Shown: positions 11,574 through 31,496 of the stretch, piece by piece | How the letters are laid out: each line of letters starts with the position of its first letter | Position numbering within the stretch: position 1 is the stretch's first letter | NCBI RefSeq assembly: GCF_024362525.1 | Contig: NZ_CP101460.1 | Coordinates: 124,001 to 188,000, forward strand | Length of the DNA: 64,000 nucleotides | DNA from: Natrononativus amylolyticus | GTDB taxonomy: Archaea > Halobacteriota > Halobacteria > Halobacteriales > Natrialbaceae | Direction: 5' to 3' | The notes under the pieces: model-generated | What the model saw: the letters and a program-made list of their open reading frames with translations, nothing else | What the model was told of the DNA's origin: nothing | Database searches by the model: none | Made by a program: the position numbers and the translations under genes

Positions 11574-13190
11574 TCAGCGCTCCGACAGCCCCGCCGCCAC
11601 CGCCTCCTCGAGCAGCCCGCGTTCGATCAACGCGACGGCCTGTTCGACGTCTACGTGTACCGGCCGATCCTCCTCGAGCGGCGGGACGACCTCCCGGATC
11701 AGGTCGTAGGCCGCGCCCGTCCCGGCGCCGAACGCGAGCGGGGTTTCGGCGTCGAAGGCGTCGTCGACGAACTCGGCGGCCTGAGCGGCGCAGACCAGTT
11801 CCGCCGCGACGACGGTCGTGGCGTTTTCGAGCGCCCGGCGAACGTTCGTCGCCGACTGGGCGCTCATACTGACGTGATCCTCCTGGCCGCCGCTGACCGG
11901 CGTGTTGTCGATCGAGGCGGGGCCGAGCGAGCGGATCTCGTTGAGCAGGGCGGCGGCGGTGTACTGGGCGATCATGTACCCCGAGCGGAGCCCGCTCTCG
12001 GGGGCGAGAAACGGCGGCAGGTGCGGCTCCTGGAGGTTCGGGTTCAACAACCGATCGGTGCGACGCTCGGAGACGGCCGCGAGGTCCGCGAGTGCGAGTC
12101 TCACGTACTCGAGTCTGAGCGCCAGCGGGATGCCGTGGAAGTTCCCCCCGGAGAGCACCGCCGCCCGGTCGGTGCCCGAGGCGCGGTCGTCGACCCGCCC
12201 GGCGTCGAAGACGAGCGGGTTGTCCGTGGCGCTGTTGAGTTCGATCTCGACGGCCTCGCGAAGGTGGGCGACCGCGTCGCGGACGGCGCCGTGGACCTGC
12301 GGGAGACACCGCAGCGAGTAGGCGTCCTGCACCCGGTCGCAGTTCCGGTGGGCCTCGACGACCTCGCTGTCGGCCGTGAGCTCCCTGATTCGGGCGGCGC
12401 TCTCGAGCTGGCCCGCGTGCGGGCGGACCTCGTGGATCGCCGGGTCCGAGCTGGCCGTGGTCCCCAGCGTCACCTCCGTCGTGAACGCCCCGGCGACGTC
12501 GGCCGCCTCGAGGAGTCGCTCGGCGTCGACGACGACCAGCGAGGCGAGCCCGACGGTTAGCTGGGTGCCGTTGATCAGCGCGAGCCCCTCCTTGGGTGCG
12601 AGCGAGAGCGGTTCGAGCCCCGCCGCCCGCAGCGCTTCTTCACCGGAAACCCGGTGTGACGTCCCCGGCTCACTACCCGTGGGCTCGTCGACGATCGCCT
12701 CGCCCTCGCCGAGCAGGACGAGCGACATGTGTGCGAGCGGGGCGAGGTCGCCGCTCGCACCCAGACTGCCGCGGGATTTCACGACCGGGTGGACGCCCTC
12801 GTTACACAGGGTGAGGAGGTGGTCGACCACGGTCTCGCGGACCCCCGAGTACCCCTTGACGAGCGCGTTGATTCGGGTCACCATCATCGCGCGGACCTCC
12901 TCGACGGTCAGTTCGCGCCCCGCGCCGGCGGCGTGGCTCCGGACGAGGTTCGTCTGGAGGCGTTCGATCTTCTCTGGCGGGATGCGCTGGTCGACCAGTT
13001 CGCCGAACCCCGTGTTGAGCCCGTACACCGGCTCGCCGCTCTCGACGACGTCCTCGACGCGCTCGCGGGATTCACGTACCCGTTCGCGAGCACCGGGAGC
13101 GATCTCGATTTCGGCGCCGTCTCGAGCCACCGCCGCGACCTCCTCCGGCGTCAGCAACTCGCCGTCGAGTTCGACCGGGGGTCGCGTCAC
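11574..13190 (-). CDS. hutH: Histidine ammonia-lyase
   Basis: 538 residues; converts L-histidine to urocanate and ammonia, the first step of histidine catabolism. The MIO-forming triad Ala145-Ser146-Gly147 lies in SRGSLGASGDLAPLAH. Other family blocks are YGLNTGFGELVDQRI, RSHAAGAG, LINGTQ, QDAYSLRCLPQVHGA, ATDNPLVFD and SGGNFHGIPLAL. It is the last gene of the hut operon; its ATG overlaps the hutI stop by 4 bases. A perfect 20-base ORB core lies within it at 12639-12658, where the coding strand reads SHRVSGEE. Confidence 0.97.
   Translation of the reverse strand: MTRPPVELDGELLTPEEVAAVARDGAEIEIAPGARERVRESRERVEDVVESGEPVYGLNTGFGELVDQRIPPEKIERLQTNLVRSHAAGAGRELTVEEVRAMMVTRINALVKGYSGVRETVVDHLLTLCNEGVHPVVKSRGSLGASGDLAPLAHMSLVLLGEGEAIVDEPTGSEPGTSHRVSGEEALRAAGLEPLSLAPKEGLALINGTQLTVGLASLVVVDAERLLEAADVAGAFTTEVTLGTTASSDPAIHEVRPHAGQLESAARIRELTADSEVVEAHRNCDRVQDAYSLRCLPQVHGAVRDAVAHLREAVEIELNSATDNPLVFDAGRVDDRASGTDRAAVLSGGNFHGIPLALRLEYVRLALADLAAVSERRTDRLLNPNLQEPHLPPFLAPESGLRSGYMIAQYTAAALLNEIRSLGPASIDNTPVSGGQEDHVSMSAQSATNVRRALENATTVVAAELVCAAQAAEFVDDAFDAETPLAFGAGTGAAYDLIREVVPPLEEDRPVHVDVEQAVALIERGLLEEAVAAGLSER
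12639..12658 (+). other. Perfect ORB-type origin recognition core inside hutH
   Basis: TTCACCGGAAACCCGGTGTG matches all 20 bases of the core found in three full copies at the origin (28297, 28496 and 28549). It sits in coding sequence about 15 kb from the origin. Chance occurrence of an exact 20-mer here is negligible, so it is likely an Orc1/Cdc6 binding site or a copied origin sequence kept in frame. Confidence 0.75.
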
Positions 13191-26299: not shown

Positions 26300-27505
26300 T
26301 TATCCCTCGACCGTCTCGACCAGCACCTTCCGGACGACGTCCGGGTCCTCGAGGAGCTGGTGTTCGGTATAGCTTCCCTCCGCACTGCCGCCGCTGTGGC
26401 GCGACTGCTCGATGATATCGAGAAACGCGTGTTCTTTCAGCAGGTCGCGGACTCGACGCAACGAGAGCGTGTCGGACCCCTCCTGGCGGCAGATTTCCTC
26501 GTAGACGTCGAAGATCTTGGTCGTCCGGAAACCGTCCTCGTCGGGCGTGTTGAGCGAGAGGACGGCGAGCGCCTGGAGGACGTACCGGGAGTGAGGGGTG
26601 GAGCCACGGATGAGTTCACGGAACCGGTCCGTCTCCGCGCGCTCGCGCGCCTGTACGACGAACTCCTCACGGACCGTCTCGCTCCCGTTCGACTGGGCGA
26701 TCTCGCCCGCGTAGCGAAGGATGTCGATCGCCTTCCGTGCGTCACCGTGTTCGCGCGCGGCGAGGGCCGCCGCCCGCGGGATGACCGAGGGCTCGAGAAC
26801 GCCGTCTTTGAACGCGTCGCTTCGAGCCTGCATGATGTCCCGGAGCTGGTTCGCGTCGTACGGCGGGAAGACGAACTCGCGCTCGCAGAGACTCGACTTG
26901 ACGCGCTCGTCCATCCGATCTTTGTACTTGATCTTGTTGCTGATCCCGATCACGCCGATCTTACAGTCGGTGAGTTTGCCGGCTTCCCCCGCGCGCGAGA
27001 GTTGCATGAGAATGTCGTCGTCGTCGAGTTTGTCGACCTCGTCTAAGATGATGAGGACGACGCCGTACTGACTGTCGAGGACGTTCCACAGTCGCTTGTA
27101 GTACGTCGACGTACTCAACCCCTTGTCGGGAATTTTGATGCCGGTCACGTCGGGCGTGTTCAGCGAGTAGGCGATCGTCTGTACCGCCTGCGTTTCCGTG
27201 TTGTCCTGGGCACAGTCGACGTAGGCGAACTCCGCGGTTACACCCTCCTCTTTGGCGACGCGAACCAGCCGTTCGGAAATATGCTTTGCACACAGCGACT
27301 TTCCGGTCCCCGTTTTGCCGTAGATCAGGAGGTTACTCGGACTCTGGCCGAAGATCGCGGGGTTCACTGCGTTCGCGAGTTCGGAAATTTCGTCGTCTCG
27401 TCCGACGATTCGGCCCTCCTCCGGGAGGTGATTGATCTCGAGGAGCTCCTTGTTCTCGAAGATCGGGTCTTCACGGGTGAAAAGGTCGTCGCCGGAACTC
27501 GACAT
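26300..27505 (-). CDS. orc1: Orc1/Cdc6 replication initiator
   Basis: 401 residues, AAA+ ATPase with C-terminal winged helix. Walker A is GKTGTGKS (63-70), Walker B LIILDEVDKL (151-160), sensor 1 IGVIGISN; the arginine-containing sensor 2 region is in GDARKAIDILRYAGEIA. The winged helix (about 300-401) contains the DNA-binding stretch LSLRRVRDLLKEHAFLD. It should bind the ORB repeats starting 10 bases upstream of its start codon and load the MCM helicase. The start (MSSSGDDLFTREDPIF) is typical of haloarchaeal Orc1 paralogs next to origins. Confidence 0.95.
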   Translation of the reverse strand: MSSSGDDLFTREDPIFENKELLEINHLPEEGRIVGRDDEISELANAVNPAIFGQSPSNLLIYGKTGTGKSLCAKHISERLVRVAKEEGVTAEFAYVDCAQDNTETQAVQTIAYSLNTPDVTGIKIPDKGLSTSTYYKRLWNVLDSQYGVVLIILDEVDKLDDDDILMQLSRAGEAGKLTDCKIGVIGISNKIKYKDRMDERVKSSLCEREFVFPPYDANQLRDIMQARSDAFKDGVLEPSVIPRAAALAAREHGDARKAIDILRYAGEIAQSNGSETVREEFVVQARERAETDRFRELIRGSTPHSRYVLQALAVLSLNTPDEDGFRTTKIFDVYEEICRQEGSDTLSLRRVRDLLKEHAFLDIIEQSRHSGGSAEGSYTEHQLLEDPDVVRKVLVETVEG

Positions 27506-27514
27506 GGATAACAG

Positions 27515-27533
27515 ACACCACGTTTCCGGTGAA
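27515..27533 (-). other. ORB element, two mismatches
   Basis: ACACCACGTTTCCGGTGAA, two mismatches to the ORB core. It lies 10 bases upstream of the orc1 start, so bound Orc1 could control its own promoter. Confidence 0.75.
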
Positions 27534-27693
27534 TACTCTTTACTGTTTGGTTCGGTTGACCGTCGTGAGACGCGATTCTCCTGCTGATCGACAGGTGGTC
27601 CGCTACGATACGGAACCCGTCGCGCTCACGGGTCACTGACCTCTTCGAAGGGGTCCTCGGTCGGCTGAGGTTGCGGGAGTGGACGAGCACACA

Positions 27694-27714
27694 CACACCG
27701 GGTTTCCGGTGAAA
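27694..27714 (-). other. ORB element, full match
   Basis: CACACCGGGTTTCCGGTGAA and a following A, reverse orientation, preceded by ACACACA. Confidence 0.88.
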
Positions 27715-27742
27715 CGGTGTGAGAGTGGGGGGTGGGGTGGCG

Positions 27743-27762
27743 TTCACCGGAAGTCCGGTGTG
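27743..27762 (+). other. ORB element, degenerate
   Basis: TTCACCGGAAGTCCGGTGTG, two mismatches; the only forward element on the orc1 side, with G-rich runs on both sides (27725-27740 and 27761-27767). Confidence 0.75.
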
Positions 27763-27997
27763 GGGCGGTCAGTAGAAAGGTAGGTCAAAACGACAGCTCA
27801 GCCACCAACACAAAATACGACGACACCGGTCGAACCGCCAGAAAACGCGATTGAGAGAGGACAACACGTCTTAGACACCGAACGAAGAGTCCAGTGCAGC
27901 CGAGAGTAGACGGAAGATCGGAGGTGAAGAGGAGAGAAAACGGAAGCGGACAGACGAGAACGAGTTGGAAGAAATGGAGGGAACAGCAGCAAATATG

Positions 27998-28013
27998 CCG
28001 TTTCCGGTGAAGA
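27998..28013 (-). other. Half ORB next to the AT-rich core
   Basis: CCGTTTCCGGTGAAG matches the TTTCCGGTGAA half only; the other half is absent. Confidence 0.55.
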
Positions 28014-28019
28014 AGGCTC

Positions 28020-28200
28020 CTGCCGAACAGATTAGTTCGGATTAGTTTGCCGAACTATCAATGGACTATTCGCCATAGGGCTATTTATACTTACCTGTTG
28101 CGGCTAAGTTGAAAAGAATGGAGCCAGCATATAAGGAAGTGATGGAGTTGATGCATAAGTTGGATGGGGTTACTACATAAGTTAAAAGGTAAACAAAAGG
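28020..28200. other. AT-rich core, candidate duplex unwinding element
   Basis: Markedly AT-rich against its surroundings. Contains alternating inverted 6-mers CCGAAC (28023), GTTCGG (28035), CCGAAC (28050), a repeated GATTAGTT (28030, 28040) and a repeated CATAAGTT (near 28154 and 28176), plus TATTTATACTTA at 28082. Confidence 0.7.
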
Positions 28201-28296
28201 ACAAGGGCTGGATTACGCGGGGAGAACGATCTTGGAGACGCCTCCTCGAGCGAACTGCGAACTCTTCCTCTCTCTCAAACTATCCCTCGAAAACCA

Positions 28297-28317
28297 TTTC
28301 ACCGGAAACCCGGTGTG
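28297..28317 (+). other. ORB element, full match
   Basis: A T followed by TTCACCGGAAACCCGGTGTG, first forward element beyond the AT-rich core. Confidence 0.88.
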
Positions 28318-28340
28318 TGCGCGCAGGCCAGAAATGTTAG

Positions 28341-28406
28341 CTCTCTCCTTTCTTCACCCTTCTTGCCTCTCCCTTCTTTTGCCCTCCCTTCCCCCCTTTT
28401 CGTCCT
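28341..28406 (+). other. Pyrimidine-rich tract in the origin
   Basis: Almost only C and T on the plus strand over 66 bases, between two ORB elements. Comparable to the G- or C-strings described in other haloarchaeal origins. Confidence 0.6.
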
Positions 28407-28495
28407 CAGTTGTCCACGCGCTCGGGTCTTCTGAGGACTCTCCTCTTCCTCGTCGGCTCCTGACGCTACGACGGGTACGAAGCCGCCTTTCGGCC

Positions 28496-28516
28496 TTTCA
28501 CCGGAAACCCGGTGTG
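28496..28516 (+). other. ORB element, full match
   Basis: Forward orientation, complete core, followed by TCTG as in the next copy. Confidence 0.88.
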
Positions 28517-28548
28517 TCTGTCCGCACAGCCAGAGCCCCATCGATCGA

Positions 28549-28569
28549 TTTCACCGGAAACCCGGTGTG
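28549..28569 (+). other. ORB element, full match
   Basis: Forward orientation, complete core, 53 bases after the previous copy (about five helix turns). Confidence 0.88.
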
Positions 28570-28600
28570 TCTGTGTCACCCTCGCTTCTTTCCTTTCATT

Positions 28601-28620
28601 TTCCACCGGAAACCCGGTGT
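28601..28620 (+). other. ORB element, near full match
   Basis: TTCCACCGGAAACCCGGTGT: one extra C before ACCGG; 52 bases after the previous copy, so the last three copies are evenly phased. Confidence 0.82.
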
Positions 28621-28825
28621 CCGCGTTCAGTGTCGTGCGTACCGGTTTCCGCCTCCACACCCACACTTTGGTACCTCGAGATCGACACCTCGAGGGTAAT
28701 CGGGACCGAAGCGCCGGCGGACGAAGACGGTCTCTATTCCGGTCACAGCCCGGTAAGATCTGGCCACAGTCCCACAAAATCAACTCAGTCACAGGTTCAG
28801 TACCGGTAGGCAACTTGATTCAGCA

Positions 28826-28870
28826 GTACAGCGATTCAATAGTCGTACAGCGATTCAGTAGTAGTACAGC
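28826..28870. repeat. 19-base tandem repeat (2.3 copies)
   Basis: GTACAGCGATTCA(A/G)TAGT(C/A) at 28826-28844 and 28845-28863, then GTACAGC. The second copy overlaps the 3' end of the zinc-ribbon gene and encodes its terminal tyrosines. Confidence 0.65.
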
Positions 28871-29037
28871 TCTAGTTCGTGTCCACAGTTACCACAACTG
28901 GTTTCAGTTCCCCGGAGTCGGTTCTCGGCGTCCGGGTCGCGAGTTTGAATACCCGTCCCCGGTGGAATCGGTGCGCTCACCACCGCTTCACATTCGGGAC
29001 AGCCGATACGCATGCGTGGACGGCCTGCTCGAGACAT
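28855..29037 (-). CDS. Small zinc-ribbon protein (60 residues)
   Basis: Two CxxC pairs, Cys13/Cys16 (GCPEC) and Cys48/Cys51 (CGNC), separated by 31 residues, make a zinc ribbon; the C-terminus ends in three tyrosines. ATG at 29037 lies about 30 bases after a TATA-like TTTAGCATAACTAA on the minus strand (29065-29078), which favours it over the internal ATG at 29013 (52 residues). It is the first gene beyond the origin; function unknown. Confidence 0.7.
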   Translation of the reverse strand: MSRAGRPRMRIGCPECEAVVSAPIPPGTGIQTRDPDAENRLRGTETSCGNCGHELELYYY

Positions 29038-30342: not shown

Positions 30343-31496
30343 TCACCGCGTGACCGTCACGTCCTCGAACTCGAGAAAGGCGGTTTCGTACCCGTCGTGG
30401 CGCGATACCTGCGGGGGCGCGTCGACGACGACCGTGACCAGATCACCCGCCTCGAGTGGATCGATGTCGACCCCGTAGTGGTGGCCCAGTTCCGGATCGA
30501 GCGTTTCCTCGAGTCGCTCCGTGACGACGGCGTCTCCGTCGCGTTCGACCGTCGCCTCGAGGGCGGCGAACGGGAGGGCGACGTCGTTGTACGGTGTCCG
30601 TAAACAGACGACGAGGCGCGTCCCACCCTCGAAGTCGCCGCTTCGATCGAGTTTTGACCGGTCGTTCTCGAGATCTGACCGCTCGACCTCGAGAATCGAG
30701 TGGGCGGCGTCGGCCGTCCGCTCGCTTCCCAGTCGTTCCCCGGGAAGGTCCTCGATCGGGCGGCTCGCCGACGCCGACGCCGGCGCCCGCGGCGTTTCCT
30801 TGCCGTGTTCGTGACCCGAACCTCCGTTCTCGTGGTCCGCGCGGTGATCCACGAGCGAAAGCGCGTCTCGCGTCCCCCGCCGGTCGTCCGCGAGCAGTTC
30901 GAACTCGAGGTCGTGAATATCCGACCGGCTGTACGTAAATTCGATCCTCGAGCACATCGACGACGCCGACTCGAACCGGCCGTCGAACGCACCGGCGGCC
31001 GTCGCTTCGAGCGGGCCGACACGCACTCGAGCGGTGTACTCGCCCTCCTCGGGGAGGGAGACGTTGTCTCCGTAGTGAAAGCCCATCCGCTGGGAGAGCA
31101 TCGGCCACGGCGCTCGCTCGAGGATGGGGTCCCCGTCGCGGCCGATCTCGAGGCGATATTCACCGGAAGGACGGTGTCCGATTCGGGGTCCCAGACGGTA
31201 CACATCAGGTGAAGCGAATCTTCCGTAGTGACGTCGACGCGTTCGATCTCACCCGCGACGACCCAGAACCGATGCGGGATGGTGTAGGTCAGTTCGACGG
31301 CGTACTCGCCGTCCGCTGCCGCCCCGAATACGCCCATCTCTTCCCGGGAAGCGGGGAGATACACTGCGTCCGGTCGGTTTTCGACCAGCGGCTGGTCCTG
31401 CCAGACCGACCGCTCTTCGAAGCCGACCCGCTCGAGACAGCCAACGAGGGCGACTCCGCCGACTGCGGCGCCCTCGAGGAACCCGCGACGGTCCAT
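30343..31496 (-). pseudogene. Metal-binding (Fe/Cu, P19/Tp34-like) lipoprotein, frameshifted
   Basis: The ATG at 31496 (MDRRGFLEGAAVGGVALVGC) gives a Tat-type lipoprotein signal with lipobox cysteine at residue 20. The protein runs to about HLMCTVWDPESDTVLP, after which homologous sequence continues in another frame (SGEYRLEIGRDGDPIL, then WPMLSQRMGFHYGDN) to the stop at 30343. Met and His in these segments resemble the P19/Tp34 iron/copper-binding family. One base appears lost near 31165. The rest of both frames shows normal codon use, so this is a recent mutation, a sequencing error, or a recoded gene. Neighbouring SCO, TlpA and CcdA genes point to metal delivery. Confidence 0.7.
31159..31177 (+). 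other. ORB-like sequence at the frameshift
   Basis: TTCACCGGAAGGACGGTGT, three mismatches to the origin ORB core. It spans the point where the reading frame of the lipoprotein gene changes. Confidence 0.45.

Follow-up and report, generated by a model that had tools for sequence, protein, structure and literature searches.

The intergenic stretch at 27506–28650 of a 64,000-nucleotide sequence from the salt-loving archaeon Natrononativus amylolyticus (the whole stretch analysed here, hereafter the window) is, judged by sequence comparison, very probably the site at which copying of a 241-kb megaplasmid starts. Our overall reading, which we hold to be likely, is that of a megaplasmid origin at which Orc and its ORBs direct MCM loading and a core module is the probable start site. 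No part of the locus is more informative than the one marked by the 6-mers in its core, to which the original prediction gave one clause. The module that contains them is apparently undescribed until now: we found no description of it in the open-access literature subset, and an earlier account elsewhere is possible.

An ORB array beside a megaplasmid-type orc gene

The window covers bases 124001–188000 of contig C3 (240,954 bp) in a 3.99-Mb genome that has two larger contigs besides. C3 carries a single orc gene and a single Orc-linked origin; comparison of its ends revealed no overlap, so its circularity is unproven. As in other archaeal Orc1/Cdc6-dependent ORB origins, the intergenic region lies next to an orc1/cdc6 gene (Table 1), whose product has the homologues 2qby and 2v1u, and repeated ORBs face opposite ways around an AT-rich core. 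When the whole genome was scanned with the ORB pattern TTCACCGGAAACCCGGTGT, allowing up to two mismatches, we obtained nine matches, all on C3 and seven of them at this locus, whereas the reversed control pattern gave 0 matches. Four first-order Markov simulations of C3 produced no ORB match at up to three mismatches. The eight predicted ORB or ORB-like elements around the core were all recovered in place, as seven ORBs and one half-ORB. They do mostly face opposite ways, those nearest the core pointing outward on both sides, but the term "mirror-symmetric" used in the original prediction is an overstatement: the third ORB on the left is reversed, here and in many relatives. The last three ORBs are evenly spaced as described, at 53 and 52 bp; this phasing was rejected as a conserved trait, being absent in relatives.

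Table 1. Features of the candidate origin and its surroundings, in window coordinates.
Feature	Position	Strand	Basis or remark
Orc1/Cdc6-family initiator gene (401 aa), cognate initiator	26300–27505	−	TIGR02928, 439 bits; Cdc6 lid and winged-helix domains
ORB 1	27515–27533	−	10 nt before orc start codon
ORB 2 (perfect)	27695–27713	−	Pattern match
G-rich run TGGGGGGTGGGGTGG	27726–27740	+	Sequence; just inside ORB 2; likened to G-rich enhancer arm of H. hispanica oriC1
ORB 3	27743–27761	+	Orientation opposite to ORB 2; facing pair recurs in many relatives
Purine-rich tract	27840–27993	+	Base composition
Box A (half-ORB), GTTTCCGGTGAA on + strand	27993–28011	−	Only TTCACCGGAAAC intact; general form TTTCnnnTGnA
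Whole core module	27999–28101	+	Covariance models R1/R2; 59.8 bits, better of two genome matches
X1 (CCGAAC)	28023–28028	+	Repeat analysis
X2 = rc(X) (GTTCGG)	28035–28040	−	Repeat analysis
X3 (CCGAAC)	28050–28055	+	Repeat analysis
Box B, TATCAATGGACTATT	28056–28070	+	Conserved across cores
Box C (TTTATA)	28084–28089	+	26 bp from box B start; edge of most AT-rich stretch
ORB 4 (perfect)	28298–28316	+	Pattern match
Pyrimidine-rich tract with C runs	28340–28410	+	Base composition
ORB 5 (perfect)	28497–28515	+	Pattern match
ORB 6 (perfect)	28550–28568	+	Pattern match
ORB 7 (1 mismatch)	28602–28620	+	Pattern match
Small CxxC..CxxC protein beside right ORB array	28855–29037	−	In 29 family loci, 50–67% identity

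Two lone near-perfect ORBs lie within coding sequence on C3, at 12639–12657 (+) of the window and C3:105582–105600, in a histidine ammonia-lyase-like gene and a site-2-protease/CBS-like gene. Isolated exact ORBs are present on several related plasmids too. Could such coding-sequence ORBs be titration sites? Weak ORB-like sites (two to three mismatches) also occur to the right of the origin, at 31159, 32389, 35496, 35529, and 49392, in excess of the Markov simulations.

The ORB layout is conserved across 41 loci (left −, −, +; right three to seven, +). An ORB right before the orc start codon is followed by a second in the same direction and usually by a third facing back; after a gap of ~250–650 bp come several ORBs, all or nearly all in the opposite direction. 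An ORB at 25–30 nt from the orc start is kept in all family loci scanned. Most relatives have an extra ORB directly after orc (~1.25–1.4 kb from its start), and the window is without one. The consensus of 269 sites, TTCACCGGAAACNYGGTGTG, has GGTGTG in place of the G run of other haloarchaeal ORBs. On the other side of the locus, the small protein listed last in Table 1 is zinc-ribbon-like, with every Pfam match below cut-off, and is possibly an origin-linked factor.

The orthologous Orc proteins, 93–97% identical, are encoded on megaplasmids of ~160–400 kb in Haloterrigena, Natronorubrum, Halosolutus, Halomontanus, and Halostagnicola, and the gene setting of their loci is partly conserved; in Natrinema the orthologue is on large contigs, some of them chromosomal-looking. 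The origin family of this locus is mainly one of 160–400 kb Natrialbaceae megaplasmids, and it includes H. turkmenica pHTUR04 and N. magadii pNMAG01. We took oriC1 to be a main-chromosome origin whose Orc is of the subfamily common to all haloarchaea. The original prediction's label orc1 is not supported on that definition and we rejected a canonical oriC1: the replicon is 241 kb long, and the Orc is of a megaplasmid-type subfamily, present in 79 of 125 family genomes and mostly megaplasmid-borne. Another, larger Orc recurs across genomes and is presumably the oriC1 Orc.

The predicted change from purines before the core to pyrimidines after it is real, with ~70–75% purine before and 25% after, and its direction is conserved, purine content being higher on the left in 25 of 26 loci. 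With the origin masked, three replicons have their purine-skew maximum no farther than ~8 kb from the site; the signal is weak and inconsistent, the C3 peak being 8 kb off and those of two relatives 48 and 62 kb off. Replicon-wide GC skew was dropped as proof because the C3 maximum is at 28237 only when the origin itself is counted and relatives disagree, and gene-strand bias was dropped for want of a clear signal. Comparison gives strong support for a replication origin next to its initiator gene: ORBs are confined to one replicon, their layout is conserved, orthologous loci are on megaplasmids, and a purine-skew peak is nearby in several.

A conserved module in the AT-rich core

The core module is ~90 bp long and has the order box A (the half-ORB); X, rc(X), X; box B (ACTYAATGGACTWTW in the consensus); and box C, TTTATA. 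GC content is lowest (0.39) at 28100–28199. The alternating CCGAAC/GTTCGG 6-mers noted earlier are present, as the X repeats. CCGAAC was rejected as a conserved word, with 14 occurrences in relatives' cores against 11 in shuffles: the sequence of X varies between species, while its copies co-vary and the arrangement X, rc(X), X is kept.

The box B 8-mer occurs in 22 of 39 cores compared with 0.5 in shuffles. At 22 of 29 loci (0.8 when shuffled), a 34-base interval ahead of box B, from −46 to −12, contains an inverted repeat of 6 bp or more; elsewhere in the core such repeats are rare. Among 54 modules, 50 have an inverted or direct X repeat, against 6.3 (maximum 14) in shuffles; for about half of them, collection was aided by a model with the hairpin built in, which biases the set towards it, whereas the 29-locus set is free of this bias. 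Pair covariation was 0.346 versus 0.113 in shuffles and also exceeded slid controls, with A3 fitted to the structure and relatedness not removed. Box A matches at least six of its seven fixed positions in 41 of 54 modules (4% in shuffles), and in 49 of 54 the distance from the box B start to TTTATA is 24–28 bp. The genomes are related, and the counts here and below are not independent events.

The core module accompanies several Orc clades

We searched for the module with two covariance models. R1, built from the window's origin family alone, gave 53 hits in 125 family genomes. Forty-six adjoin an orthologous orc, in one case spanning the start point of a circular record. Six are at origins of other Orc proteins, 55–58% identical to that of the window and with other ORBs, for example TACAGCGGCAACGCGGGGTGTG; the last, in a Halostagnicola-like genome, has no orc or ORB array nearby. 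R2 had a training set of 37 modules, many of them recovered again among its hits; it found the module 101 times, in 79 of the 391 Halobacteria genomes scanned. Ninety-nine hits are 119–1248 bp upstream of an Orc1/Cdc6 gene, and the remaining two, L277 and L260, are among ORBs of the same family as those of the window, L260 at a contig end. In the window's own genome, a second R2 match (29 bits) is beside the Orc gene of contig C2, with different ORBs. Comparison thus ties the module near-exclusively to Orc-linked origins and shows it to be independent of ORB type: four or more Orc clades have it, and in at least three of these the ORBs differ. In an Orc tree, which is a sketch with some long branches and with the rows WIN, L026, L261, and L265 mislabelled "no" for the module, it is spread over several clades.

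L277 (G170:C3:98000-110000) has no orc gene within 12 kb, with three ORBs to the left of the core module and two to the right; a related Orc gene is ~43 kb away on the same contig. At L282 (G087:C1:3546000-3555500), the Orc genes of two different clades are neighbours, and each has a core module to itself. In four Halostagnicola cases (L014, G020, G021, and G024) the module is inverted relative to orc, and at L014 the neighbouring ORBs are inverted along with it, as if a whole segment had flipped naturally.

When we scanned 393 genomes of the phylum, the module turned up only in the same order. It was not detected in three family members (L030, L038, and L042) or at the putative oriC1 of the window's genome, nor did R2 find it in the L043–L072 Orc clade, where a degenerate look-alike was seen by eye at L063. 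A plain tripartite X scan over all loci gave an excess of chance hits and was unusable alone.

Proposed mechanism and alternative readings

We infer that Orc would bind the ORBs, most of which turn their G-string-equivalent end outward, on either side of the AT-rich core and direct MCM loading onto it. The core module would be the actual start site, either bound by a factor distinct from Orc's ORB-reading surface or forming the place where the duplex first opens. ORB 1 probably allows Orc to repress its own gene. The suggestion that two arrays, each facing outward, would load helicases is plausible in the light of archaeal origins that have been studied.

The main rival makes the module a promoter, with the X repeats as operator, box C as TATA box, and the origin activated or regulated by a transcript that leaves the core. 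The fixed distance between box B and TTTATA and an outward direction that is consistent in most loci would fit it, but the position expected for a BRE, immediately before TTTATA, carries hardly any information, conservation fades within ~15 bp past TTTATA, and there is no Rfam match, a result on which an RNA gene was also rejected. Constant flanking ORBs, even where the orc gene is missing, suit an origin element better, and we regard a promoter as unlikely. Since box A is a half-ORB in the window's origin family, box A, X, and box B might instead form a degenerate extra Orc site, read by the same Orc as the ORBs; however, box B and the X repeats resemble no ORB, and box B is identical in origins with wholly different ORBs, which makes this quite improbable. 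Least probable, in our estimate, is a region that regulates orc transcription or titrates Orc, as a dormant or relic origin. The position of ORB 1 so close to the orc start would suit it, haloarchaea have known examples of both dormant origins and ORB arrays that act by titration (PMC4595724, PMC3936714), and a possible relative in Natrinema J7 failed on a plasmid (PMC5350488). Against it, C3 has no other Orc, the relatives are on megaplasmids, and the core module is conserved and kept even in an ORB locus without orc.

The near-exclusive association with Orc-linked origins and the presence alongside different ORBs argue that the module belongs to the origin core as a cis element and is no further ORB. 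The same is favoured by the Halostagnicola case in which neighbouring ORBs are inverted with the module, and by the orc-less locus that has kept it. We lean somewhat towards a wider view, in which start sites of one modular kind are common to haloarchaeal origins of several Orc clades and are read independently of the ORBs, by some factor or as a DNA hairpin with two alternative forms; the initiator–ORB pair would turn over while the start site is kept.

Comparison with known origins

The locus resembles the orc/cdc6-adjacent haloarchaeal origins in the passages of Wu et al (2012; PMC3528665) that treat them: there, too, orc is beside intergenic opposed ORBs around an AT-rich core, and ORB type is tied to Orc type. 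It differs from them in its many ORBs and reversed third left ORB; the long G-string at the ORB end, part of their definition of a haloarchaeal origin, is absent from the 269-site set, which has GGTGTG(TG). Those passages make no mention of the core module. In Haloarcula hispanica oriC1, a G-rich inverted repeat acts as an enhancer (PMC3936714). Both loci have a G-rich run inside the left ORBs and a C-rich one to the right, and the strand order agrees, whereas the Orc subfamily and ORB differ and the purine/pyrimidine switch is broader here. Natrinema J7 oriC4 has 8 ORBs in 1.3 kb beside cdc6 and gave no transformants on a plasmid (PMC5350488); its layout is like that of the window's family, of which it may be a candidate member. 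Another J7 origin, oriC10, is active without a cdc6 gene (PMC5350488). In this it is like L277 with its missing orc.

Detail on how archaeal origins open and on where helicases start comes mainly from Sulfolobales. There, the ucm element is needed for oriC1 activity and is bound by UBP, whose gene the study presents as an acquisition of Desulfurococcales and Sulfolobales (PMC12141716). Like ucm, the module is a conserved motif of the AT-rich core, distinct from ORBs and common to different origins; it differs in its unrelated sequence and in having several parts with co-varying repeats, and a ATTATACAAAC-type ucm motif between ORBs had no match near the origin. By analogy, the core module may be a haloarchaeal counterpart of ucm, its closest known parallel. 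It would serve as a motif for finding origins independently of ORB type, orc-less ones such as L277 included. The ucm study asks whether analogous origin factors exist in more divergent archaea (PMC12141716), and the module offers a concrete, sequence-defined candidate in genetically tractable haloarchaea, at many origins with unrelated ORBs.
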